From the NCBI GenBank assembly GCA_938005265.1, contig CALLOA010000027.1, positions 16,642 through 80,641 of the forward strand: a stretch of 64,000 nt of DNA, given 5' to 3'. The DNA is from an uncultured Granulosicoccaceae bacterium (lineage in GTDB: Bacteria > Pseudomonadota > Gammaproteobacteria > Granulosicoccales > Granulosicoccaceae). The notes under the pieces were generated by a model. That model made no database searches and was not told the origin of the DNA. It worked only from the letters and a program-made list of their open reading frames with translations. Position numbers and translations under genes: made by a program. Shown piece by piece: positions 5,181-48,981 of the stretch. The stretch's first letter is position 1, and each line of letters starts with the position of its first letter.

Positions 5181-5260
5181 ATACTACGGCAAGCAGGTAT
5201 TGAACACGCTGTGTAGCCCTTCAGGAAACATTGATCTGTAAACAGCTGCAGATCATCGTT

Positions 5261-5302
5261 ATTGCCTTCCCCCAGAATTTTATTACCTTCCCCCAGAATT
5301 GC
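5261..5302. repeat. 21-bp tandem duplication downstream of pilE
   Basis: 'attgccttcccccagaattt' plus one T is followed immediately by 'attaccttcccccagaattg' plus one C. The two 21-bp units share 18 positions. They are intergenic, between pilE and the MttB-family gene. Confidence 0.7.
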
Positions 5303-5340
5303 CTGCCTGCAGGCATTCTGCTCTGATAATGAGCCTTTTT
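5295..5340 (+). terminator. possible terminator of the pilin operon
   Basis: An imperfect hairpin, AGAATTGCCTG/CAGGCATTCT, is followed by GCTC-tgataat-GAGC and then 'CTTTTT'. The second stem is short, so this is a tentative intrinsic terminator for the plus-strand pilin genes. Confidence 0.35.
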
Positions 5341-5455
5341 GTCAGATTGGCTTGAATATGGCGGCTGCTAAGGCCGTCGGAAACAGTAGCATTGCCAACG
5401 TGGGCCTGGCCCTTTAGGATTCATGTCTGATTCCTGTCACAACTACTGAATCCCA

Positions 5456-7012
5456 ATGAACAACCCTCGCAAGCGCAGACGCGCGCGCAAGACCGGGGCG
5501 GTGGCCAAGGTGGCACTGCCTCAGCTCGAACGACGTGTGCTTCGTAACCGTTTCGCGCCTGTTGAACCGCTGGATGAGGAACAAATTAATCTTATCCACG
5601 AAGCAAGCATGACTTTGCTGGAAGAGCAGGGCATTGAGGTTTTGGGGGATATGGCTCTCGATCTGTTTCGCAAGGCCGGTGCTGATGTTGATTCAGCAGG
5701 CGTGGTGCGAATGGACCGGGGCCTGTTAATGGAAGCAATCGCGAGCGCGCCAGAAAAATTCTCGGTAACGCCTCGCAACGATGCAAATACCCTGCAGGTT
5801 GGCGAAGATGTTATCAATTTCGGTATGGTGTCCGGCCCACCCAATGTGCACGACAATATCAACGGTCGGCGTATGGGAAACATTCGTGATTTCGAAAGCC
5901 TGGTCAAGTTTGGTCAGTATTTCAACGTCATCACATTCTTTGGCAATCAGGCTGTAGCGCCAACAGATCTGCCAGTCAACACCCGACATCTGGATACCCT
6001 GCTAGCCAGCATTGTTTATTCAGACAAACCGTTTTTCTCAACCGGGATAGGTGCGGGTCGATCACTGGATGCGATTAATATGTGCGCCATAGCGCGTGGT
6101 ATCAGTGTCGAAGAACTGGCCGCATCACCAAGTGCGATGACCAATATCAATGTAAATTCTCCACGCAAACTTGATGACAGCATGGCTTATGGTGCAATGC
6201 AATTGGCCACCCATGGGCAGCCGGTTTCTGTAACACCGTTTACGTTAATGGGCGCCATGACGCCTGCGACACTGGGTGGGGCACTGGTGCAGCAAAACGC
6301 TGAGGCCTTGCTCGGCATCGCATTGTTACAATTCACCAGACCGGGAACACCCGTTATTTATGGTGGTTTCACGTCCAATGTTGATATGCGCTCCGGCTCA
6401 CCTGCCTTTGGCACGCCAGAGAATGCTATGGCAAATCTCGCTGGCGGGCAGCTTTCACGCTTTTACAAATTACCGCACAGAACCAGTGCCTGTAATGCAT
6501 CCAATGCGGTTGACCTGCAAGCTGTTTATGAAACCCAGATGGCTCTATGGGGTTCGGTGATGGGCCACGGAAATCTCATTTACCATACCGCAGGCTGGCT
6601 AGAAGGCGGGTTGGTGGCGTCGTTTGAAAAAGTGATAGTGGATTGCGAAATGCTACAGCACATGACGCAATTTCTTCAGCCTGTAAAAATTGATCTCGAT
6701 GAAATTGGCTTGGATGCCATGCGTGAAGTGGGCCCCGGTGGTCATTTTTTTGGTTGTGAGCACACCATGGCTCGATATAAGGATGCGTTTTATCAGCCTT
6801 TCCTCAGTGATTGGCAAAACCATGAGAATTGGGTGGCATCAGGATCTAAAGATGCAACGCAACGAGCCACTGAAATATGGCCAAAAATATTACAGGAATT
6901 TGAAGCACCGCCGCTGGACCCGGCTATAAAGGAAGAGCTGGAGGCGTACGTGGTTAAACGAAAAGAGGAGTTGGGTAAAGAAGAGCCAGCGTTAGAGCCA
7001 GTCTTGATATGA
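5456..7012 (+). CDS. trimethylamine methyltransferase (MttB) superfamily protein, non-pyrrolysine type
   Basis: Corrinoid-dependent methyltransferase family: members demethylate trimethylamine, glycine betaine or other quaternary amines and pass the methyl group to a corrinoid protein. The 518 residues match the family length and its typical text, for example 'MTLLEEQGIEVL', 'FGMVSGPPNVHD', 'TLMGAMTPATLGGALVQQNAE', 'GPGGHFFGCEHT'. True MttB reads an in-frame amber codon as pyrrolysine; this ORF is continuous and ends in TGA, so it belongs to the pyrrolysine-free branch. The basic N-terminus ('RKRRRARK') is common in marine homologues. No corrinoid protein, RamA-type activator or betaine transporter lies next to it, so the substrate is unknown. 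Confidence 0.85.
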   Translation: MNNPRKRRRARKTGAVAKVALPQLERRVLRNRFAPVEPLDEEQINLIHEASMTLLEEQGIEVLGDMALDLFRKAGADVDSAGVVRMDRGLLMEAIASAPEKFSVTPRNDANTLQVGEDVINFGMVSGPPNVHDNINGRRMGNIRDFESLVKFGQYFNVITFFGNQAVAPTDLPVNTRHLDTLLASIVYSDKPFFSTGIGAGRSLDAINMCAIARGISVEELAASPSAMTNINVNSPRKLDDSMAYGAMQLATHGQPVSVTPFTLMGAMTPATLGGALVQQNAEALLGIALLQFTRPGTPVIYGGFTSNVDMRSGSPAFGTPENAMANLAGGQLSRFYKLPHRTSACNASNAVDLQAVYETQMALWGSVMGHGNLIYHTAGWLEGGLVASFEKVIVDCEMLQHMTQFLQPVKIDLDEIGLDAMREVGPGGHFFGCEHTMARYKDAFYQPFLSDWQNHENWVASGSKDATQRATEIWPKILQEFEAPPLDPAIKEELEAYVVKRKEELGKEEPALEPVLI

Positions 7013-7027
7013 GAGTGCGTAACGACA

Positions 7028-7051
7028 ATGCCCTCGCTAATGCGAGGGCAT
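7028..7051. terminator. bidirectional terminator hairpin between the MttB-like and dodecin genes
   Basis: ATGCCCTCGC-TAAT-GCGAGGGCAT is a perfect 10-bp stem with a 4-nt loop, 15 nt after the MttB-like stop and in the convergent gap before the dodecin 3' end. T-rich sequence follows on the plus strand ('ctttgctttttt'). Confidence 0.7.
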
Positions 7052-7075
7052 GCATTCATAAGGTTGTTAATCTTT

Positions 7076-7122
7076 GCTTTTTTAGTTCTTCCGCTTTTAG
7101 TCTTTCCGTTTTTAGTCTTTCA
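7076..7122. repeat. three tandem ~15-bp repeats covering the dodecin stop codon
   Basis: Units 'gttttTAGTCTTTCa' (7108-7122), 'gcttttagtctttcc' (7093-7107) and a longer degenerate copy (7076-7092). Read on the minus strand, each unit carries a TAA. The three TAA codons (complements of 7112-7114, 7097-7099 and 7082-7084) are exactly 15 nt apart and all in the dodecin frame, giving two backup stops. Confidence 0.75.
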
Positions 7123-7315
7123 AAACGAAAGAAACCTTCATAGTGACGCGATATTCAACAATTTTGCCACCATCTACAACAACTTTCTGGTCTTTAACCC
7201 AGGCACCTTTGACATCCTTCAGAGTCTTGTCTGCGCGTTTTATACCTTGTTCTACGGCGTCGTCAAAACTTTTGCTGGAGGACGCGATTACTTCTGTAAC
7301 TTTTGCTACTGACAT
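7112..7315 (-). CDS. dodecin family flavin-binding protein
   Basis: Small protein forming dodecameric shells that bind flavin or CoA and buffer free flavin. The sequence 'MSVAKVTEVIASSSKSFDDAVEQGI', then 'VKGAWVKDQKVVVDGG' and 'YRVTMKVSFVLKD' is dodecin end to end, with the flavin-stacking Trp in 'GAWV'. The ORF track begins 16 codons earlier; the Met at 7315 is chosen because it matches the 67-residue family length and has an AAGAGG ribosome-binding site 9 nt upstream. Its 3' end lies in tandem repeats that add in-frame stops. Confidence 0.9.
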   Translation of the reverse strand: MSVAKVTEVIASSSKSFDDAVEQGIKRADKTLKDVKGAWVKDQKVVVDGGKIVEYRVTMKVSFVLKD

Positions 7316-7463
7316 AGGAATATACCTCTTACTGATTGATACTGAATACTGTCTTACAGACACGAACGGATATTATACTCGATTACAAGTACCATTCAGG
7401 TAGTCATAGTAAAATTGAGTTTCGTTTAACAGCCAGCTTCTTCCACCACAGGCTCTTATAACA

Positions 7464-8615
7464 ATGAATTACGATTCATCCTACTTCGATAAGGTGCTCG
7501 ATAGACGTCATACGAACAGTATTAAATGGGATAAGTATGGCGAGCGTGACGTTTTGCCACTATGGGTGGCAGATATGGACTTCCCAATTGCTGACGAAAT
7601 ACGCAACGCTATGCTGGAACGTCTTGAGCATCCCGTCATGGGGTACACGCATGCGTCGGAAAATTTATTTTGCGGTTTACGGTTGCACCTGAAAGAAGAA
7701 TTTTGCTGGAATATAGAAAAAGAATGGATTATCTGGATACCGGGTGTCGTGGCGGGATTGGCCGCTTGTGTAAGAGCTTATGCCAGGCAAGGTAGTGAGA
7801 TTATTACTAACCCGCCCATATACCATCATTTCTTTCAGGTGCATGATCAGGCCAGGCACAAGCTTGTTGAAGTGCCTTTACGCGTCGAGGGCAAACGCTG
7901 GACCTACGATATTGAAGCGATGCGCAAGGCAGTAAATGAAAACACTTCACTGATTATGCTTTGCTCGCCGCACAACCCGACAGGCACGGTATTCACGCCG
8001 GCGGAACTGCGTGAGATCTGCGCTATTGCGGATTCTGTTGGCGCAGTTGTCGCATCAGATGAAATACATTGCGGGTTGGTCTTGAACGGTGCGACACCAC
8101 ATAAGCCCACAGCTCTTGCAGCTGCCAACAGCGAATCGGTTGTGACTTTGATGTCTGCCAGTAAAACGTTCAATCTGGCAGGGGTCAATTGTTCTTACGG
8201 TATTATTGCTAACCCCGAATTACGGCAGAAATTCCAGGCTGCCTGCGCTGAAGTAATACCTCCGGTGTCTACGCTTTCTTACACTGCCGCAGAAGCAGCC
8301 TTTGCTTCAGGTCGGCCGTGGCGTCAGGGATTACTGGACTATTTGCGTGGCAACTACGCTTATCTGGTGGAAGAGTTCGCAAAGATTGATGGCATGGAGT
8401 TGCAATCGCTGGATGCAACCTATCTGGCATGGATTGACGCATCAAAGCTCGGTCTTAATGACACTAGCGGATTTTTTGAAAGCCACGGACTGGGTTTTTC
8501 TTCGGGTGAGCAGTTCAGGCAGCCCCAGCACCTTCGGCTGAATTTTGCTTGTCCCCGCAGTACACTTGAGCTCGCTATAAGTCGTGTGCACGCTGCACTT
8601 GCCACATTGGCTTAA
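7464..8615 (+). CDS. patB: PLP-dependent C-S lyase/aminotransferase, MalY/PatB family
   Basis: Fold-type I PLP enzyme; MalY/PatB proteins cleave cystathionine and cysteine S-conjugates to thiol, pyruvate and ammonia. The 383-residue length is typical. Landmarks are 'LPLWVADMDFP' near the N-terminus, 'NPPIYHHFF', 'CSPHNPTGTVFT', 'SDEIHCGLV', the PLP lysine in 'SASKTFNLAG' and the substrate-carboxylate arginine in 'HLRLNFACPR'. The stop shares TTAA with the convergent Nudix gene, a 4-bp 3' overlap. The gene symbol follows the family; the physiological substrate is not evident from context. Confidence 0.85.
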   Translation: MNYDSSYFDKVLDRRHTNSIKWDKYGERDVLPLWVADMDFPIADEIRNAMLERLEHPVMGYTHASENLFCGLRLHLKEEFCWNIEKEWIIWIPGVVAGLAACVRAYARQGSEIITNPPIYHHFFQVHDQARHKLVEVPLRVEGKRWTYDIEAMRKAVNENTSLIMLCSPHNPTGTVFTPAELREICAIADSVGAVVASDEIHCGLVLNGATPHKPTALAAANSESVVTLMSASKTFNLAGVNCSYGIIANPELRQKFQAACAEVIPPVSTLSYTAAEAAFASGRPWRQGLLDYLRGNYAYLVEEFAKIDGMELQSLDATYLAWIDASKLGLNDTSGFFESHGLGFSSGEQFRQPQHLRLNFACPRSTLELAISRVHAALATLA

Positions 8616-9316
8616 TGACTTGAGGCTGGCGGGGCGTAACCTGGAATTAGTAAGTCTCCATTGCGTAATGCATGTAAGAAGTTGAGTGTCATCCTTGCAC
8701 TGGCACCCCATAATATTTCACCATCATATTCATCAAAGTAGACGATAGTTGAGCGTTTGGACTCAGCTGTAGAAAGACCCTGGTTGTTTGGTGACGCTGG
8801 TCTTTCGCGAAGTTCGTAGTGGCTGCTGTCCATTAACCAGTCCAGCGGAATCGTAAAGGCTCGTGCGACTTCGCTGTCCTGCAGTTTCATTGTGCAGGGC
8901 CATTGCAGCAAGCCTACAACTGGAGTAACACGAAAGTAACTGATAGTTTCATAATCCGGTAGCACACCGACAACGCGAATTTTATCTCGCCGAATACCGA
9001 CTTCTTCACGCGTTTCGCGCAGTGCTGTATCCACAGCATCAACATCGCCCTTATCGCAAGCACCTCCGGGAAAAGCGACCTGACCGCTATGCCGGTCTTT
9101 TTCATTTTTGCTGCGCCTGATGTAGAGAACTTGCCACTGGTCAGCGTGTCTCAGCAGTGGTATCAGTACTGCCGCTTTGCGTAATTTGTATCTTTTTCCT
9201 GTACCTCTGGGCAGGTCGGAGGTGTGCAGTGCAGCCGCTTTGCTATCGCTGGGTTTGTTGGCCAGCTTGCTGACCCTGTTAGCAGGACTGATAAAGGGCA
9301 TGGAAATATCTGTCAT
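8612..9316 (-). CDS. CoA-type Nudix hydrolase (NudL-like)
   Basis: Predicted coenzyme-A diphosphatase. The pre-Nudix motif 'LYIRRSKNEKDRHSGQVAFPGG' matches the UPF0035/CoA-pyrophosphatase signature, followed by the Nudix box core 'TALRETREEVGI' with its metal-binding glutamates. The protein carries a C-terminal extension beyond the Nudix fold. The track start at 9337 is a TTG; the ATG at 9316 (or 9301) is more likely, though neither has a good ribosome-binding site. Convergent with patB and divergent from the GGDEF-like gene. Confidence 0.82.
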   Translation of the reverse strand: MTDISMPFISPANRVSKLANKPSDSKAAALHTSDLPRGTGKRYKLRKAAVLIPLLRHADQWQVLYIRRSKNEKDRHSGQVAFPGGACDKGDVDAVDTALRETREEVGIRRDKIRVVGVLPDYETISYFRVTPVVGLLQWPCTMKLQDSEVARAFTIPLDWLMDSSHYELRERPASPNNQGLSTAESKRSTIVYFDEYDGEILWGASARMTLNFLHALRNGDLLIPGYAPPASSH

Positions 9317-9428
9317 TGTTTTATAAATATGAAGCAATTCACAGTGTAACCGATTTGTGCGTGACGGGAAGATGCCAGAAAAATGGCCATAAGCCGATAA
9401 CTAAACTACCCATCGGGATTTTTTTTGC

Positions 9429-10754
9429 ATGCAAGGCAACACTCGTCAATTATCCACCGTCGTTCAGCGCTCAAAGGCCTTTGAGCAGAGCGAGGAAACT
9501 GTGCGTCACCTGCGCCGAGACTCGGCATCCGTGAAATATAGGCCAGTCGAGGTGCAATTTTTCTGTCTGGCAGATAGTAATTTAGGACTTCACACGGATA
9601 TTCAGGCCCGGGTTAAAAGTGTTACCAATTCAGCTGAATGCCGCAGCCGTTGTAATGTCGGACTGTTGGAACTGGGATTGATTCCCTTCGGTGCGACAAA
9701 TAAACAGAGCGAGCTACTGATGTCTGCAGCCGCAACTCAGGCGCTGCCTGTGGTCGTAGTGGCTGATGATCTTGTCGCGGCACGTCGCAGCCCCCTACCG
9801 CCGAACGTAGTCGCTGTAATCGCTAATGATGAAAGTGGAGCAGCAAAACTACGCGATATCTCTCACCAAATCGGAAGTCATGTACACCAGAAGTTATGGT
9901 TGGTTGGAGATTTCAACGGCTACACGCAGCGACTCTATCAAAACCTTGGATACAGTGTGACGTGTGTTGATCAACTTCATCAGATAGATGTTGTGGATGA
10001 ATGCTCAAATGAGAGAGCTTCTGCTTCAACTGTGGTTTTAAATAGTAGTGGTGAGCGTAGTTATCATGATTATGATAATTTTCCAGCGCAGCTGGAAGAG
10101 GCCATAGCGAGCAATGAATATTTTTCAATGTTTACCTTGCTGGATGCGCAAAGCTGCGAACTCAAATATCTGTGGCAACAGCTGGGGGTTACAGCGATAG
10201 ATCAACGCTACACACTTGAACAGGAGGTTGTTGGTCTTGTAAGGGCGTCTTTAAGTCAACAACACAGGCTTGTAACGTTGAATCACGACGCGCTCAGGAA
10301 TTGCCGAACCGGGATTTACAACAAGAATTATCTTGATGAGGCCGGTCGTCTTCTTCATGCTGCTAGCCAGCGAGGTGAGACGCCCTTTGCTGTTGTTGTT
10401 ATACAGCTGCGTGCTACAGATTCGCTGGCAAGTGTTGATAACGTTGAAATTATCCAGAATATACATCAGCTACTTCAAAGTGAATTGCGTGTAAATGACA
10501 TTGTGGCGCAACGTTTTCCTGAAGAGCTGATTTGCCTGATCAGTAGTGCTGAGCGTTATTCTCTGGCTGGATTACTTGAGCGTGTGCACAAAGCGATTCA
10601 AGTCAATCTGGAAAGTCAATTTGGCAGGGAACTGCCGCTAAGGATAGGTGCCACTGTGGAGCAAGGTGCCAGCTTCGACGCAATGATGCACCGTGCCACT
10701 ATGGCTGCTTTGCAATGCAGCTTGCCTGACAGCGGAATAGTTGTCATTCTATAA
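9429..10754 (+). CDS. degenerate GGDEF-domain signalling protein
   Basis: 441 residues. The last ~150 look like a diguanylate cyclase fold ('NKNYLDEAGRLLHAASQRGETPFAVVVIQL...LRVNDIVAQRF'), but where an active enzyme has GG(D/E)EF this protein reads 'RFPEEL', so cyclase activity is unlikely. Residues ~70-270 contain what looks like two receiver-like alpha/beta segments ('LPVVVVADDL', 'FSMFTLLDAQSCELKYLWQQLGVTA') without the clear Asp/Lys phosphorylation set. No transmembrane segment is evident. Likely a c-di-GMP effector or scaffold; the intact EAL gene is 17 kb downstream. Family call moderate, function unknown. Confidence 0.65.
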   Translation: MQGNTRQLSTVVQRSKAFEQSEETVRHLRRDSASVKYRPVEVQFFCLADSNLGLHTDIQARVKSVTNSAECRSRCNVGLLELGLIPFGATNKQSELLMSAAATQALPVVVVADDLVAARRSPLPPNVVAVIANDESGAAKLRDISHQIGSHVHQKLWLVGDFNGYTQRLYQNLGYSVTCVDQLHQIDVVDECSNERASASTVVLNSSGERSYHDYDNFPAQLEEAIASNEYFSMFTLLDAQSCELKYLWQQLGVTAIDQRYTLEQEVVGLVRASLSQQHRLVTLNHDALRNCRTGIYNKNYLDEAGRLLHAASQRGETPFAVVVIQLRATDSLASVDNVEIIQNIHQLLQSELRVNDIVAQRFPEELICLISSAERYSLAGLLERVHKAIQVNLESQFGRELPLRIGATVEQGASFDAMMHRATMAALQCSLPDSGIVVIL

Positions 10755-12772: not shown

Positions 12773-13588
12773 CTAATTCTCGCTGCTGTCTGCCTGGTCT
12801 TGCGTTTCGTTGTTCTCGAACAACCTGTCTATCATTCGCTCGGGATTGTCGAGAAAAGATTTTGTAATTTTAAAATGCTCGGTATCCTGAAAGCTGATGT
12901 TCTCGAAAACACCATCGTTTATCTGGTAAATAAGAGCACCCGGATAAGCCATTAAAATAGGCGAATGGGTCGCAATGATGAATTGTGAGTTTTTGCTGAT
13001 CAATTCATGCATTCTTTTTAATACAGCGAGTTGCCGCTGTGGCGAAAGCGCCGCTTCGGGTTCGTCCAGAATATAAAGTCCGTTACCGAAAAAACGATTC
13101 AGCATTAGTGCAAGAAAGGACTCTCCATGTGATTGTTGATGCAGGGACAGTCCACCATAAGCGTCAATAATGGGTGGCGGTGAAATTCTGGCCTCGGGGT
13201 CGTCTTTGTCAAGGTCTTCAATATTACTTGCAACATTGTAGAAACTTTCAGCTCTTAAGAAAAAGCCGTCCTTGGGTTTTTTTATGGATTTCACCAGGCG
13301 CAGGTACTGGTACAGATCCGAGTGATTGCTGTGAGTTTCAAAACCAAAATTTTTCGTTCCGCCTTCGGGATTAAAGCCAAGAGCCACAGCGATCGCCTCG
13401 ACTATAGTAGATTTGCCGCTGCCGTTTTCACCAATAATGAAAGTCACCTCTGGCGAAAATTGCAGGCGCTCTAATTGCCCTATCGCAGAAAGCGTAAAAG
13501 GGAATCGGTTGTAATTGTCGATTTTATCGTGCTTGAGTGAAATTTCCCTTAAGAAAGCTTGCGGGCCCAGAAGGTTTGATGCTTCCAC
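12773..13588 (-). CDS. COG3910-type AAA/ABC-like ATPase
   Basis: Stand-alone ATPase of the RecF/SMC-like (ABC-type) superfamily. Walker A is 'IGENGSGKST' (residues ~52-61), an ABC-signature-like stretch is 'SLHQQSHGESFLALM', Walker B is 'GLYILDEPEAALSP', and the switch histidine is in 'FIIATHSPILMAYP'. The 271 residues leave no room for coiled coils or membrane segments, so it is probably a soluble motor or switch. It starts with GTG sharing one base with the SDR stop (TAGTG), making it the last gene of a four-gene coupled operon. Role of the family unknown. Confidence 0.82.
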   Translation of the reverse strand: MEASNLLGPQAFLREISLKHDKIDNYNRFPFTLSAIGQLERLQFSPEVTFIIGENGSGKSTIVEAIAVALGFNPEGGTKNFGFETHSNHSDLYQYLRLVKSIKKPKDGFFLRAESFYNVASNIEDLDKDDPEARISPPPIIDAYGGLSLHQQSHGESFLALMLNRFFGNGLYILDEPEAALSPQRQLAVLKRMHELISKNSQFIIATHSPILMAYPGALIYQINDGVFENISFQDTEHFKITKSFLDNPERMIDRLFENNETQDQADSSEN

Positions 13589-14334
13589 TAGTTTTTACTC
13601 TTCTTTTTGACAACCCTTTTCAGTGGGTTGACGTTTATTTCCTCGATGACTGCATGGTCAGGTGATTCAAGCAATTGTAAAACAGCATTAGCAACATCAT
13701 CGCCTAGCAGAGCGTTGTCGTCACTAGCGCCCGGTTCAAATTCCAGCGGTTCAAAAAAACCGGTTCTCACCATGCCGGGGTTTACCATGCCGATATGGCA
13801 ATTGGCAGCTGCGCACTCGTGGCGCAATGCTTGAGAAAAACCACGCAATCCGAATTTGCTCGCACTGTAGACTGCTCCGTATCGTCCTCCGGCAAGGGCG
13901 GATTCCGAACCGATAAAAATAATGTCACTGCGACTACAGGTTTTTAATGAAGGTAACAGGAGGCGACACAAAAAAATATGTGACAGTAAATTGGTATTCA
14001 GTAAATGGTTTATCTGTTCCAGTGAAAACTCCTCCAGTGAGCCAAAGCGTCCGATGCCAGCATTGCAGATCACGCTGTCGATTGTATAGTCTCGTAGTAA
14101 GTGTGGAATAACCTGCTGCAATTGTGCACTATCTGAAACATCACACTCGATGCTGGAAAAATTCTGTTGTAAGCATTCCGGTAGTTGATCGTTGATTCCT
14201 GTGGTCGGTTGTCTTGATAAACCCAGCACTTGATGGCCGGCCATCAGCAGTTTTTTGCAAGTCGCAGCGCCTATCCCGCGGCTCGAACCGCTTAGTAAGC
14301 AAGTTCGGCTGTTGCTTGTGATTGTACGGCTCAT
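13588..14334 (-). CDS. short-chain dehydrogenase/reductase
   Basis: Classical SDR of 248 residues. The cofactor motif is 'LLSGSSRGIGAATC' (TGxxxGIG type), then 'CNAGIGRFG' (NNAG-like), the catalytic Ser in 'FIGSESALAGG', and Tyr-x3-Lys in 'YGAVYSASKFGLRGF'. 'GLSRQ' after the first fold carries an Arg, suggesting NADPH. The C-terminal 'RVVKKKSKN' is strongly basic. It overlaps the radical SAM gene by 4 nt (ATGA) and shares a base with the ATPase start, so it is co-translated with both. Substrate unknown. Confidence 0.85.
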   Translation of the reverse strand: MSRTITSNSRTCLLSGSSRGIGAATCKKLLMAGHQVLGLSRQPTTGINDQLPECLQQNFSSIECDVSDSAQLQQVIPHLLRDYTIDSVICNAGIGRFGSLEEFSLEQINHLLNTNLLSHIFLCRLLLPSLKTCSRSDIIFIGSESALAGGRYGAVYSASKFGLRGFSQALRHECAAANCHIGMVNPGMVRTGFFEPLEFEPGASDDNALLGDDVANAVLQLLESPDHAVIEEINVNPLKRVVKKKSKN

Positions 14335-15401
14335 GTGTGGCAGGGGAAAAAGCGGGAGCTGTCTATAGCTGACAGAATTCGATTACTGCAAAAACCCATC
14401 ATGTCCTCCTCCAGCGATTGCGGGTAACTTATCATCGACTGCCTGTTTGCTGTTGTATTGTTATTGTGTGGTGGTTCTGAGGTTGTTTGCTCCAGATTGA
14501 CAGCCAGCATAGGTTCTTCGGGGTAGAGCTTGATTATTTTTTTAAAAAATGGTTTTGGCAATCTGAAAGTACCCAGGCTGATTGAATGTATTCTGCTCAT
14601 GTCGAGCAGGTCAAAAACTTCATCGAACATGTCTGTATAGAGCTGCTCGAAATTGGCAGCTGCGATCAAAGGATCAAAACGTAGTCCGATAGGCCAGCCC
14701 TGTTGTTGTAATTTTTTCAGAGCGTCAAGTCTTTTGTGCAGGGAAGGGGTTTTATGTTCAATGGCTTCAACGATGGGTTGAGGTGAAAGGCTGTAAGCAA
14801 TGACACAGTTGCCCTGTGGTTCGCGTTTTAGCAGATTCCTGATTTGTGTGCTTTTGGTGCGTATTTCCAAATAAGCATTGGCTGGTGCTGTGCCGTTGGT
14901 TTCGCACTTGTCTTTACTGGAATGTGAAAAATAATCCAGACAATGTGACATGAAATGTGTGATGGGCTCCAATGCCAGGGAATCGCAATCGTAGCCAGAG
15001 AAAAACCAAACGGGTTCGTCTGCATGCAGGTGACAGGTCAGTTCTATCTCGTTAAAGAATGCGTCGAAATTGGTAAACACAACGTGATTAGCGGACTGGT
15101 ACATGCCTTGAAGAAAACAATAGCGACAGTCGTAGATGCAATTCATCATATGCGAGAAATAGTAATTGTTACAGCCGCCAATACCGTACCCTTCGGGTGT
15201 TGGCAGTACGAATTTCCCGTGTTTTTCTGCCAGTATCAACGCCGGGTTCAGCTTTTGCAGGCGGAAATTCTGTGATTTAGGATTAAACACTTCTCCGAAA
15301 CGATCAATCTCTATGATGTTTTTTGGCTGTGCACGGGCAAGTATTGCCTGAACCTGTGGCGTATTAGCTATGCTGCGCTCAACGTAGGCTGTGTCGTTCA
15401 T
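14331..15401 (-). CDS. spore photoproduct lyase-like radical SAM protein
   Basis: Radical SAM enzyme of the SPL/'DNA repair photolyase' group, 356 residues. The [4Fe-4S] cluster motif is CxxxCxxC in 'MNCIYDCRYCFLQG' (C88, C92, C95). The lead-in 'LPTPEGYGIGGCNNYYFSH' and downstream 'YLEIRTKSTQIRNLL', 'GLRFDPLI' fit the SPL TIM-barrel pattern. Bacillus SPL uses a Cys as H-atom donor; in my mental alignment that position falls in 'FFSGYDCDSLALE', where it reads Tyr137 with a Cys two residues later. It overlaps both neighbours by 4 nt. No sporulation genes are near, so the substrate is probably not spore photoproduct. Confidence 0.8.
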   Translation of the reverse strand: MNDTAYVERSIANTPQVQAILARAQPKNIIEIDRFGEVFNPKSQNFRLQKLNPALILAEKHGKFVLPTPEGYGIGGCNNYYFSHMMNCIYDCRYCFLQGMYQSANHVVFTNFDAFFNEIELTCHLHADEPVWFFSGYDCDSLALEPITHFMSHCLDYFSHSSKDKCETNGTAPANAYLEIRTKSTQIRNLLKREPQGNCVIAYSLSPQPIVEAIEHKTPSLHKRLDALKKLQQQGWPIGLRFDPLIAAANFEQLYTDMFDEVFDLLDMSRIHSISLGTFRLPKPFFKKIIKLYPEEPMLAVNLEQTTSEPPHNNNTTANRQSMISYPQSLEEDMMGFCSNRILSAIDSSRFFPCHT

Positions 15402-16348
15402 GTTTCTGGTTTGAGCGCCCGCTTGGAGAGCTTGTTATTGTTGTATTCGGGCAAGAGGGTGCTGATGCCGTTATCAAGTGCACTAATCAGTTCAGAGCCG
15501 TTCTTTATCTGTAGATGCTGCGGTAGTGACTTGCCCAGTACCTGGTAGCGTCTGATCAGTTTTCCTAGTTGTTCCTGTTGTGACCGTGTGAAGTGCAGTT
15601 TGTTATTCATTTGTTTTTCAACATGTGCAATAAAGCGGTCACAGGTTTTCTCAAGTTGTTCCATTTGTGGAAAGCCTGTCTGGCTGGAATCCAGCAATTG
15701 GCCGGCAAAACGAGTAATGGAAACAAGGTTCCGGGTCATCAGGTCGTTGATCGCGGCTTTTGTTATTGAGAGGCTTTGTTTGTTGCCTGATTTGTATAGC
15801 GGTGTTGTCGGGTTGTCCGAAATGATTTTTAAACACTGCACCTGTTCTGCAGCCAGGAATTGTCTGGCTGCGAAACAAAAACCATACGCTTCCATTTCAA
15901 AGCACTGGTCGGGCTGGTATGCAGTACACGGATTCCCGACAGACTTGATTGCAAGTCCCGGAATATCGGTTTTAAATGGTAGCTGCGGATAAAAAATTCC
16001 CTTTGAATGTTCTGAAAAGTCATTCATTGTTTGTTTTGCAATGCTACTGGCATGGTAAATCGTTCCGATGGCGTGGTCGGAACCTGCGACGCCAATATTG
16101 ATAGCGACACTTGAGTGAGGCAACGAACCTAAAGCGTAGGATGTTGCGCTGGCGGCAGCCAGTTCACCGATACCGCAAATTATGAGTGTGACGCTGGTTG
16201 ACTCGTAAAGGCGGTAAGCACGGGTTTTCCGGGCTTTCAACTGATAATGCTCGATCAGTGGCGTCGCCTCGGCCTGCAGTGCTACGACCCATAGTAAATG
16301 TGATTGCATGGCCGATGCCGCGGTGTCTGAGGATGTGGCCGATTGCAC
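15398..16348 (-). CDS. nucleoside phosphorylase/nucleosidase-like protein (MTAN/PNP superfamily)
   Basis: Residues ~15-215 carry the PNP_UDP_1 fold: 'LLWVVALQAEATPLIEHY', 'LIICGIGELAAASATSYAL', 'SVAINIGVAGSDHAIGTIY', the nucleoside-binding 'CFEMEAYGFCFAA' and 'CLKIISDNPTTPL'. The C-terminal ~100 residues are helical and polar, with no relation that I recognise. The start is a GTG at 16348 preceded by GGGA; an ATG at 16309 is the alternative. First gene of the coupled operon (ATGA overlap with the radical SAM gene). Radical SAM turnover can release 5'-deoxyadenosine, and MTAN-type enzymes can cleave it, so a partner role is plausible but inferred. Confidence 0.75.
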   Translation of the reverse strand: MQSATSSDTAASAMQSHLLWVVALQAEATPLIEHYQLKARKTRAYRLYESTSVTLIICGIGELAAASATSYALGSLPHSSVAINIGVAGSDHAIGTIYHASSIAKQTMNDFSEHSKGIFYPQLPFKTDIPGLAIKSVGNPCTAYQPDQCFEMEAYGFCFAARQFLAAEQVQCLKIISDNPTTPLYKSGNKQSLSITKAAINDLMTRNLVSITRFAGQLLDSSQTGFPQMEQLEKTCDRFIAHVEKQMNNKLHFTRSQQEQLGKLIRRYQVLGKSLPQHLQIKNGSELISALDNGISTLLPEYNNNKLSKRALKPET

Positions 16349-16558: not shown

Positions 16559-16921
16559 ATGCTTGTTTCCAACCTTGAAATTCTCCCGAACCGCAAGATC
16601 GAAGCCCATTTAGGGCTGGTGCAGGGCAGTTCAGTGCGCAGCAAGCACGTCGGCCGCGATATTATGGCGGGAATGAAAAATATATTCGGTGGCGAGCTGA
16701 AAGGCTATACAGAGCTTTTGCAGGACTCACGTCAGGAAGCGATGCAGAGAATGCTGAAACAGGCAGAGTCAATGGGTGCCAATGCCGTGCTCAATGTGCG
16801 GTTCTCCACGTCCAGCATTACCTCGGGTGCGGCGGAGATTTATGTTTATGGTACGGCCGTGAAGCTGGACGACGCGCAGAATCATGCAGCAGGCACCAAT
16901 CAGGTGACAACTCATGTTTGA
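16559..16921 (+). CDS. YbjQ/UPF0145 family protein (first copy)
   Basis: Putative heavy-metal-binding family of small oligomeric proteins with unknown biochemical role. 120 residues, all domain: 'AHLGLVQGSSVRSKHVGRDIMAGMKNIFGGELKGYTELL' and 'REAM'-like 'RQEAMQRMLKQAESMGANAVLNVRF', then 'AEIYVYGTAV'. No signal peptide or membrane segment. AGGA lies 8 nt before the ATG. It overlaps the next, membrane-anchored YbjQ copy by 8 nt, so the two probably form a mixed complex. Divergent from the nucleosidase operon. Confidence 0.85.
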   Translation: MLVSNLEILPNRKIEAHLGLVQGSSVRSKHVGRDIMAGMKNIFGGELKGYTELLQDSRQEAMQRMLKQAESMGANAVLNVRFSTSSITSGAAEIYVYGTAVKLDDAQNHAAGTNQVTTHV

Positions 16922-17378
16922 AATTGTCAGTTTTCTGGTATTGCTGGTCGTTGGCTATGCCTTCGGCAGTCTGGCAGAGCGTCGTCACTATCGCTCCATC
17001 CAAAAGCTGGAAATTGAATTTAATTCAATACCTGCCATTGCCAGTCGCTACCCGCCGGTAGACAAGGCTTACCAGCAGCAGTTGGTCGTTGGTAATGTAG
17101 TTATTGCCTCGGATTACTTCAAATCCTTCCTTGCAGGCCTGGTTAATTTTTTCGGTGGAGCCGTTGTCTCCTATGAGTCATTGCTTGATCGTGCGCGACG
17201 GGAAGCCTTGTTGCGCATGAAAAAGCAGGCAAGGGCTGTGGGTGCTGACTATGTCTTTAACATTAAGTATGAAACAACTTCTGTTGGTAGCGGGCGTCTG
17301 GCATCCATCGAAGTGCTGGCATATGGCACAGCGCTGACACCCTCCGGTATCAGTATTCCAGCGAATCCTGGCAGCTGA
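16914..17378 (+). CDS. membrane-anchored YbjQ/UPF0145 family protein (second copy)
   Basis: 154 residues: an N-terminal transmembrane helix 'FEIVSFLVLLVVGYAFGSLA' followed by the YbjQ fold ('GNVVIASDYFKSFLAGLVNFFGGAVVSYESLLDRARREALLRMKKQARAVGADYVFNIKYETT'). It resembles the upstream copy but is tethered to the inner membrane, the domain probably facing the cytosol given the basic 'ERRHYR' after the helix. It overlaps the first copy by 8 nt; the M48 protease follows after 14 nt. Confidence 0.85.
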   Translation: MFEIVSFLVLLVVGYAFGSLAERRHYRSIQKLEIEFNSIPAIASRYPPVDKAYQQQLVVGNVVIASDYFKSFLAGLVNFFGGAVVSYESLLDRARREALLRMKKQARAVGADYVFNIKYETTSVGSGRLASIEVLAYGTALTPSGISIPANPGS

Positions 17379-17392
17379 AACAGGTATTTTTA

Positions 17393-18247
17393 ATGCGCTA
17401 CGAGAACCGCCAATCACCTGAGGGAATCAATGTCACGGAGCATAATCCGGTGGCTCACCTGCTGAAGCTGCTTGCTGCGGCCGTTGTGATTATCGTGTTG
17501 GTGGTGGTGCTCGCTAACTTGTTCGCCTCCAGGTTGGGCAGGCTGATTCCGTTTCGCTATGAACAGGCATTGATGCAACATGTCACTTATGATTTTAGCG
17601 GGGCAGGGTCTGAGTCTGTGGCGATGCAGGAGTACCTCAACACGCTGGTACAGCGGTTGAGTCCATTGTTGGAGGTGCCTGAAGATATCGAACTCAACCT
17701 TCATCATAATCCTGATGGTGTTTTTAATGCTTATGCAACGTTCGGTGGAAATATTGTCTTTTACAATGGGCTACTCGGGCAGTTGCCACATGAGAACGCC
17801 TTGGCCATGGTCGTAGCTCATGAAATTTCCCATGTATTGCATCGTGACCCGGTAGCGGGTTTGGGCGGTGGTCTGGCCAGTATGGCAGCGCTGATGGCTT
17901 TGACCGGAAGCACCGGTGCTGGCGCGGTTGGCAATCTGCTGAACAAAACCGGTATGGTTGCACAGATGAAATTCAGCCGTGATATGGAGCGCGCAGCGGA
18001 CCGCGCAGCTCTGAGTGCCGTAAATCAGCTCTATGGTCATGTCAACGGAGCGGATGAGTTATTCAAAGTCCTGTATCAGTTGAGCGGTGCTACTGCTGAA
18101 CAGGAAACTACGTTTGATGCATTCATGGCGACTCATCCCTTGCACCAGGAGAGAATCGATGCAATTGCACAATGGGCAGCTGAGAACGGCTGGTCGACAG
18201 CAGGTGAGATAACACCGTTGCCTGAAAACTATTATGATTGGTTGTGA
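17393..18247 (+). CDS. membrane-bound M48 family metalloprotease
   Basis: Zinc endopeptidase. One transmembrane helix near residues 22-46 ('LLKLLAAAVVIIVLVVVLANLFAS'), then a peptidase domain with HExxH in 'VVAHEISHVLHRDP' (His143) and the third ligand Glu in 'RDMERAADRAAL'. 'GGNIVFYNGLLGQLP' before the motif is typical of periplasmic M48C/BepA-like or LoiP-like enzymes. 284 residues, no TPR tail. It follows two YbjQ genes in the same direction within 14 nt, indicating one transcription unit and a possible role in controlling that complex. Confidence 0.85.
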   Translation: MRYENRQSPEGINVTEHNPVAHLLKLLAAAVVIIVLVVVLANLFASRLGRLIPFRYEQALMQHVTYDFSGAGSESVAMQEYLNTLVQRLSPLLEVPEDIELNLHHNPDGVFNAYATFGGNIVFYNGLLGQLPHENALAMVVAHEISHVLHRDPVAGLGGGLASMAALMALTGSTGAGAVGNLLNKTGMVAQMKFSRDMERAADRAALSAVNQLYGHVNGADELFKVLYQLSGATAEQETTFDAFMATHPLHQERIDAIAQWAAENGWSTAGEITPLPENYYDWL

Positions 18248-48141: not shown

Positions 48142-48981
48142 CTACAGCAACTGTGGCAATAAATCCTGTATTTGTTGCAGCAACTCCCGGGCTTGCCTGT
48201 TGTTGTTGTGCTTTTCCGCCCCCTTCTGGAATATTCTGAATTTGGCTTCCATTTGTTCGAGGGTTTGCTGCTGCTGCGTATTCGTCAGGCTGCCGCTGCG
48301 GATAATTTTTTCCATGGCTTTGATTCTGAAGCGATCCATCGCCGGGTATTTATGCGATAGCTGGTCGCTATGGCCGCCATATTTTTTCAGTAAAGGTTTG
48401 TCGACAAACAGCACCGGCATTAGTGAGCAAACGCGAAGCCACATGTCATAGTCTTCACAGGCAGGCAATTCAGTGTCGAACAGGCCAACCAGATCAAAGA
48501 CTTGTTTATGAATCAGGACAGCAGAGGGTGAAATAACGCAAAGAGGCAGGCAGTTGCTGTAGATCTCACCACCTGTCTTTTTGTGTTTTTTCATCGGATT
48601 GACTCTGCGCCCGTTTCGAATCCAGATCTCATCGCAGTGACAGATGAGTGGATTTGCATGAATGGTCGCTTGCGTTTGCAGAGCGCTTTTTTGCTCGCGA
48701 AGTTTTTCAGGCAACCATTCATCGTCGGAATCCAGAAACGCAATCCACTCACCTGTGGCCGCTTTAATGCCGGCATTGCGCGCGGCTGAAACCCCTTGAT
48801 TGGATTGCTGCAGACAAATTACCCCGGGATTCTGCTGTGCTATCGCAGCACTTGAATCGGTTGAACCATCATCAACCACAATTAATTCGTGAGCAGGAAA
48901 TTCCTGTGCAATGACAGATTTGATGGCACGGTCTATGGTGCTCTGCCGATTAAATACTGGAATAATGACTGATACTTGCAC
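48142..48981 (-). CDS. family 2 glycosyltransferase
   Basis: 279 residues, GT-A fold. 'VSVIIPVFNRQSTIDRAIKSVIAQEFPAHELIVVDDGSTDSS' is the classic start, and 'ARNAGIKAATGEWIAFLDSDDEWLPEKL' carries the DxD-like metal/nucleotide-sugar motif. 'ELPACEDYDMWLRV' is the acceptor-side ED motif. No membrane segment, so it is cytosolic. It stands alone rather than in a polysaccharide cluster. Substrate unknown. Confidence 0.9.
   Translation of the reverse strand: MQVSVIIPVFNRQSTIDRAIKSVIAQEFPAHELIVVDDGSTDSSAAIAQQNPGVICLQQSNQGVSAARNAGIKAATGEWIAFLDSDDEWLPEKLREQKSALQTQATIHANPLICHCDEIWIRNGRRVNPMKKHKKTGGEIYSNCLPLCVISPSAVLIHKQVFDLVGLFDTELPACEDYDMWLRVCSLMPVLFVDKPLLKKYGGHSDQLSHKYPAMDRFRIKAMEKIIRSGSLTNTQQQQTLEQMEAKFRIFQKGAEKHNNNRQARELLQQIQDLLPQLL

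Follow-up and report, generated by a model that had tools for sequence, protein, structure and literature searches.

The question raised by this locus is what a radical S-adenosylmethionine (SAM) enzyme of the spore photoproduct lyase (SPL) type does in an operon with a nucleosidase, a short-chain dehydrogenase/reductase (SDR) and an AAA ATPase. The operon lies in a window, by which we mean the whole 64,000-nucleotide stretch analyzed here, of contig CALLOA010000027.1 from an uncultured Granulosicoccaceae bacterium (assembly GCA_938005265.1; genome G000 in our set). The genome comprises 4.9 Mb in 212 contigs, belongs to the Gammaproteobacteria and has its best relatives among the Granulosicoccaceae. 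The nucleosidase (NUC), the SPL-like enzyme (SPL-A) and the SDR were found to form, together with a glycosyltransferase of family 2 (GT2), a real co-inherited enzyme set, as seen in its genes, their order, co-inheritance and fusions and in the folds and residues of the proteins. The ATPase is a local passenger that was inserted here and lies outside the conserved system. No description of the GT2-NUC-SPL-SDR set was found in the open-access literature.

A conserved gene neighborhood

The neighborhoods of SPL-like homologs were compared at 80 loci from species genomes and 30 from an even class sample, with the window's own locus included and some regions present in both. NUC was found directly upstream of SPL on the same strand in 95 of the 103 loci with enough upstream sequence, and at most junctions the genes overlapped or were separated by only a few bases. 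SDR was found downstream of SPL in 82 of 110 loci. SPL identity to the window protein falls to 45% among these loci, which include Acidobacteriota. NUC, SPL and SDR are a conserved trio, mostly translationally coupled. The initial annotation held that all four overlapping genes of the window are coupled; since the same coupling was found again across many families, that of NUC, SPL and SDR is not due to chance, but the coupling of the ATPase was seen in this genome only.

GT2 was the only other common neighbor family. It was present at position -2, directly upstream of NUC and on the same strand, in 35 of 78 loci, Acidobacteriota (L059) among them, and none of the remaining recurring neighbors occurred in more than 20 loci. 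The two most frequent of these, YbjQ and M48, belong to Granulosicoccaceae-type loci. In the window, GT2 lies apart from the operon. It matches PF00535, shares 55% identity with the GT2 encoded in the operon of another locus (L049) and is matched by the subfamily profile at 6.7e-124 in G000. GT2 is a real fourth partner, which the initial annotation overlooked. Since a genome of the same family as the window genome (G145) holds GT2, NUC, SPL and SDR all together, the four-gene operon is probably ancestral.

Acidobacteriota provided a negative control. All five SPL-A matches there (four genomes) have NUC. In the ~1.5 kb searched on either side of another SPL subfamily in this phylum (25 loci, most of which show a GTGELxDSL motif), none of the three partners was present.

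Two smaller features of the loci were also observed. DUF1820 proteins lie near the GT2 or SDR end in 12 of 78 loci (for instance L175:4797-5108, L020:5022-5357 and L021:9179-9517). In a Bathymodiolus symbiont (L028, ~5226-9813), transposase-like fragments flank the SPL-SDR pair, and NUC is not upstream.

Co-inheritance and fusions

SPL-A, SPL-B, NUC and GT2 were mapped across the same 274 sampled gammaproteobacterial genomes. Carriers made up 48 of them (~one in six), and some Acidobacteriota and Fusobacterium carry the set as well. SPL-A was present in 37 genomes plus one fragment, and SPL-B, a distant form of about 370-476 amino acids (aa), in 10, never alongside SPL-A. An SPL-family protein was present in 44 of 44 NUC genomes and 44 of 44 GT2 genomes (Fisher p ~1e-46, a statistic that ignores the kinship of the genomes). 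The E-values have natural gaps, from 5e-42 to 7e-11 for NUC and from 2e-99 to 1e-51 for GT2. Four genomes have SPL without NUC: two in which a NUC-like domain is joined to GT2 (G075, G203), one with a decayed NUC (G051) and one that is 82% complete. The distances of SPL correlated with those of NUC (r=0.85), SDR (r=0.86) and GT2 (r=0.78), as expected from common inheritance. Rare co-occurrence of the genes, which the initial annotation named as evidence that would speak against its system, was not observed for three of its four genes; it was observed for the ATPase.

In Fusobacterium vincentii, NUC and SPL form one 623-aa protein followed by SDR, and the NUC part matches the window NUC at E=5e-16. 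Together with the GT2 fusions, this is the strongest hint of physical or metabolic coupling. The earlier view that the nucleosidase and the SPL-like enzyme belong together is upheld by their adjacency and by this fusion.

Two of the records carry unexpected labels. The F. vincentii record (L111, NZ_CP084075.1) is 2.1 Mb long and labelled a plasmid, and it is almost certainly a chromosome. L112 (MT835514.1), from human faeces, is named Bacteriophage sp.; it holds SDR, a NUC-like remnant, SPL and apparent cellular genes, and looks bacterial.

Genes in the window

The four minus-strand open reading frames between 12773 and 16348, with successive overlaps of 4, 4 and 1 nt (ATGA, ATGA, TAGTG), are exactly as the initial annotation described them (Table 1). 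Homologs of NUC begin near residue 17, which makes the ATG at 16309 the more probable start. At 16559-18247 on the plus strand, an M48 peptidase gene and two YbjQ-like genes run divergently from NUC, and they have the same position in Granulosicoccaceae-type loci.

Table 1. Genes of the operon and the separate GT2 gene in the window
Gene	Product	Position	Strand	Details
NUC	Nucleosidase	16348-15398	minus	316 aa, GTG start as called
SPL-A	SPL-like radical SAM enzyme	15401-14331	minus	356 aa; PF20903
SDR	Classical short-chain dehydrogenase/reductase	14334-13588	minus	248 aa; PF00106
ATPase	COG3910-like AAA ATPase	13588-12773	minus	271 aa, GTG start; AAA_15/AAA_21
GT2	Glycosyltransferase family 2	48142-48981	minus	Fourth member of the conserved set

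Residues of the SPL-like enzyme

SPL-A has the fold of SPL (TMq 0.76-0.79) and matches PF20903 with 66.6 bits (cut-off 27), but it falls below the cut-offs of the curated SPL equivalog models, with 77.5 vs 400 bits for TIGR04070 and 44.2 vs 437.6 for TIGR03886. In a 33-row alignment, residues 88-95 of the CIYDCRYCFLQG motif (residues 88-99), which contain the CxxxCxxC cluster, are invariant, as is FSGYDCDS at residues 134-141. Besides fold and cluster, SPL-A shares with SplB (TIGR04070, PF20903; PDB 4FHC-4FHG, 4K9R) an equivalent of Tyr97 (Tyr94). It differs from SplB in its operon partners and its lack of a sporulation context, and also at the residues that recycle SAM.

In true SPL, Cys141 is the hydrogen donor and Tyr99 returns the radical, by which SAM is reformed (PMC3742179; PMC5368176). 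The Y99F and C141A variants of the Bacillus subtilis enzyme produced about one 5'-deoxyadenosine per repaired dimer, with no SAM regeneration (PMC3742179). In a profile alignment to B. subtilis SPL, Phe96 of SPL-A stands at the position of Tyr99 and Tyr137 at that of Cys141, and the invariant Cys139 follows two residues on. The places of Phe96 and Cys139 are taken by Ser/Ser in SPL-B, Phe/Gly in the G075 type and Tyr/Thr in Fusobacterium. Judged by these alignments, the Cys141/Tyr99 relay is conserved in no linked subfamily. With the relay residues absent or changed, the set offers a natural test of the mechanism of true SPL. The idea that Phe at the Tyr99 position always accompanies NUC was rejected, since Tyr occupies this position in the NUC fusion of Fusobacterium.

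SPL-B proteins (L174:6953-8383, L184:4349-5617, L186:4311-5642 and relatives) have additional cysteines, in CPVxSxxTxCCN ahead of the cluster motif and in YLCME or YFCME near the C-terminus. These could form a further metal or Fe-S site.

The nucleosidase, SDR and GT2

NUC is below all the curated cut-offs, with 22.4 bits to PNP_UDP_1 (PF01048; cut-off 25.1), 15.5 to PRK05584 (cut-off 169) and 35.7 to its best NCBIfam match, futalosine hydrolase (TIGR03664; cut-off 124.7). The E-value of the last is 6.9e-9, vs 9.3e-3 for 5'-methylthioadenosine/S-adenosylhomocysteine nucleosidase (MTAN). The 50 best PDB matches of the structure model (pLDDT 89.5) were all MTAN or futalosine hydrolase, and Glu27, Glu153 and Asp178 are kept in 102 of 102 homologs with an intact catalytic domain. 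We take these to match the acid/base and ribose-binding residues of MTAN. The fold and the invariant catalytic residues confirm that the gene was correctly annotated as a nucleosidase. NUC shares its fold, Glu/Glu/Asp residues and hydrolytic type with MTAN (Pfs; TIGR01704) and futalosine hydrolase, but it has a shorter core (~residues 17-206), carries an extra C-terminal helical domain (~207-300) and occurs only in SPL-family genomes.

The helical domain has a history of its own. In G051, the catalytic domain is lost (E=0.12), the helical domain is retained (2e-11) and the SPL beside it is intact. The gut contig L112 resembles it, with a segment that matches the Fusobacterium helical region (2e-5) and SPL alongside. 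NUC in SPL-B genomes has no such domain. Because it is kept in G051 and L112 and missing from the NUC of SPL-B genomes, the helical domain seems to serve SPL. SPL-B has an N-terminal extension to which this domain shows weak, no more than suggestive similarity (hhalign E 0.026, probability 2%; hmmsearch 0.013-0.15).

One other PF01048 protein was found in the window genome, an S-methyl-5'-thioinosine/5'-methylthioadenosine phosphorylase (L229:3287-4009; G000 C128). Canonical MTAN exceeded the cut-off in 0 of 46 carriers and 2 of 34 non-carriers; this comparison does not discriminate, and NUC as a simple MTAN replacement was rejected.

SDR matches PF00106 with 135.6 bits (1.9e-39). It has a TGxxxGxG-type motif and Asn115, Ser143, Tyr156 and Lys160, each shared by 97% or more of 89 homologs, and its Arg41 suggests NADP(H) as the cofactor. 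The DxD-type motif of GT2, DSDD, is invariant in the subfamily alignment.

A proposed role for the set

We estimate a probability of about 50% that SPL-A is a radical enzyme that consumes SAM and has a nucleosidase of its own docked to it, most likely to clear 5'-deoxyadenosine, in a pathway with SDR and GT2. For the SAM stoichiometry, the substrate and docking of NUC and the roles of SDR and GT2, we infer the following scheme. SPL-A would generate a 5'-deoxyadenosyl radical and act on its substrate. As the true-SPL relay is not conserved in it, each turnover should cost one SAM and set 5'-deoxyadenosine free. NUC would dock on SPL-A via its helical domain (or by fusion) and hydrolyze 5'-deoxyadenosine to adenine and 5-deoxyribose, which would relieve product inhibition. 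SDR, probably NADP(H)-dependent, would reduce or oxidize the product, and GT2 would transfer a sugar to it.

5'-Deoxyadenosine is a known inhibitor of radical SAM enzymes, and its removal falls to a nucleosidase or phosphorylase (PMC6079011). For Escherichia coli biotin synthase, Pfs relieves this inhibition (PMC6079011 and references there), but Pfs is a general MTAN, whereas NUC is dedicated to a single radical SAM enzyme, shares an operon with it and, in one lineage, is fused to it. The suggestion in the initial annotation that the nucleosidase removes the by-product of the radical SAM enzyme fits this scheme, since the SAM-recycling relay is not conserved.

More broadly, our estimate leans slightly toward a widespread, so far unrecognized bacterial biosynthetic pathway in which an SPL-fold enzyme, complexed with its own nucleosidase, produces or alters a metabolite, and SDR and a dedicated GT2 finish it as a glycosylated product. 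Such a pathway would give SPL-fold enzymes a major role outside DNA repair. The SPL gene of the set is prone to annotation as a DNA repair enzyme. The set would be an orphan pathway with defined genes and, if the clearance scheme is true, a natural example of physical linkage between a radical SAM enzyme and the nucleosidase that clears its by-product.

Several points weigh against clearance by a docked nucleosidase. The SPL of Fusobacterium and L112 has Tyr at the Tyr99 position, so Phe is not universal, and Cys139 of SPL-A might stand in for Cys141 in a different relay. No GT2 was found in the Fusobacterium record. That NUC catalysis is dispensable rests on two lineages, G051 and L112. SPL-negative Gammaproteobacteria mostly lack canonical MTAN and also lack NUC, so clearance alone leaves a nucleosidase for a single enzyme unexplained. 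Finally, the scheme was built on sequences and predicted structures.

Alternative explanations

Another possible, if clearly less probable, explanation is adenosylation, in which the SPL-like enzyme adds a 5'-deoxyadenosyl group to its substrate, NUC removes the adenine, SDR reduces the sugar aldehyde and GT2 glycosylates. Parallels are MqnE with futalosine hydrolase, HpnH with HpnG in hopanoid synthesis and ArsS in arsenosugar synthesis. One chain would account for all three partners (nucleosidase, SDR and GT2) of one radical SAM enzyme, and the set is strictly co-inherited; futalosine hydrolase, the best NCBIfam match of NUC, takes a bulky 5' substituent. However, the fold of SPL-A is far nearer to SPL than to MqnE (4e-19 vs 2e-3), and G051, apparently like L112, lost NUC catalysis while its SPL stayed intact. 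Since catalysis is dispensable there and the helical domain is not, clearance of 5'-deoxyadenosine is favored over an obligatory depurination step. The HpnH/HpnG/HpnI and MqnE/MqnB pathways share the logic of a radical SAM enzyme with a nucleosidase (and a glycosyltransferase), but their radical SAM families are unrelated. Hopanoid side-chain synthesis in particular is disfavored because, of 46 carriers, only 8 had a squalene-hopene cyclase match above the cut-off, and G000 had none.

A route through modified nucleosides or bases, such as salvage or the modification of tRNA or nucleotides, is doubtful. NUC would free a base and the SPL-like enzyme would break or make a C-C bond, a layout like that of a nucleosidase with queuine lyase. 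SPL is known to act on a nucleobase dimer in DNA, a nucleosidase would be a natural partner and GT2-like enzymes glycosylate queuosine in eukaryotes. Nevertheless, no tRNA- or base-metabolism gene was a constant partner in the neighborhoods, the triad of NUC is of the adenine-type MTAN kind and the sole solved-structure sequence matches of SPL-A are SPL, not queuine lyase.

Repair of ultraviolet (UV) damage is an unlikely job for the set, and a DNA photolesion lyase as in spores, with the other genes as accessories, is very improbable. The shared fold and Pfam family speak for it, as does an SPL-family gene induced by UV-C in the non-sporeformer Curtobacterium (PMC12029717). Against the earlier proposal of UV or thymine-dimer repair, the SPL models of NCBIfam fail by far, the relay residues are absent, the carriers include deep-sea Bathymodiolus gill symbionts and oral and gut bacteria, and the gene is co-inherited with a glycosyltransferase and an SDR.

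The ATPase as a passenger

The single working system of four window genes that was first proposed has scarcely any credibility: SDR and the ATPase do overlap by 1 nt, but no ATPase homolog was found in the 109 other loci (1 of 110 with the window), and relatives at ~57% identity stand alone on unrelated replicons of Caballeronia, Cupriavidus and Clostridiaceae (Firmicutes). Anti-phage defense was rejected, as PADLOC matches only the generic ATPase, which itself matches AAA_15/AAA_21 with 58 bits. In the nearest relative (L002), the ATPase is absent and SDR is followed directly by a convergent gene for a pyridoxal phosphate enzyme.

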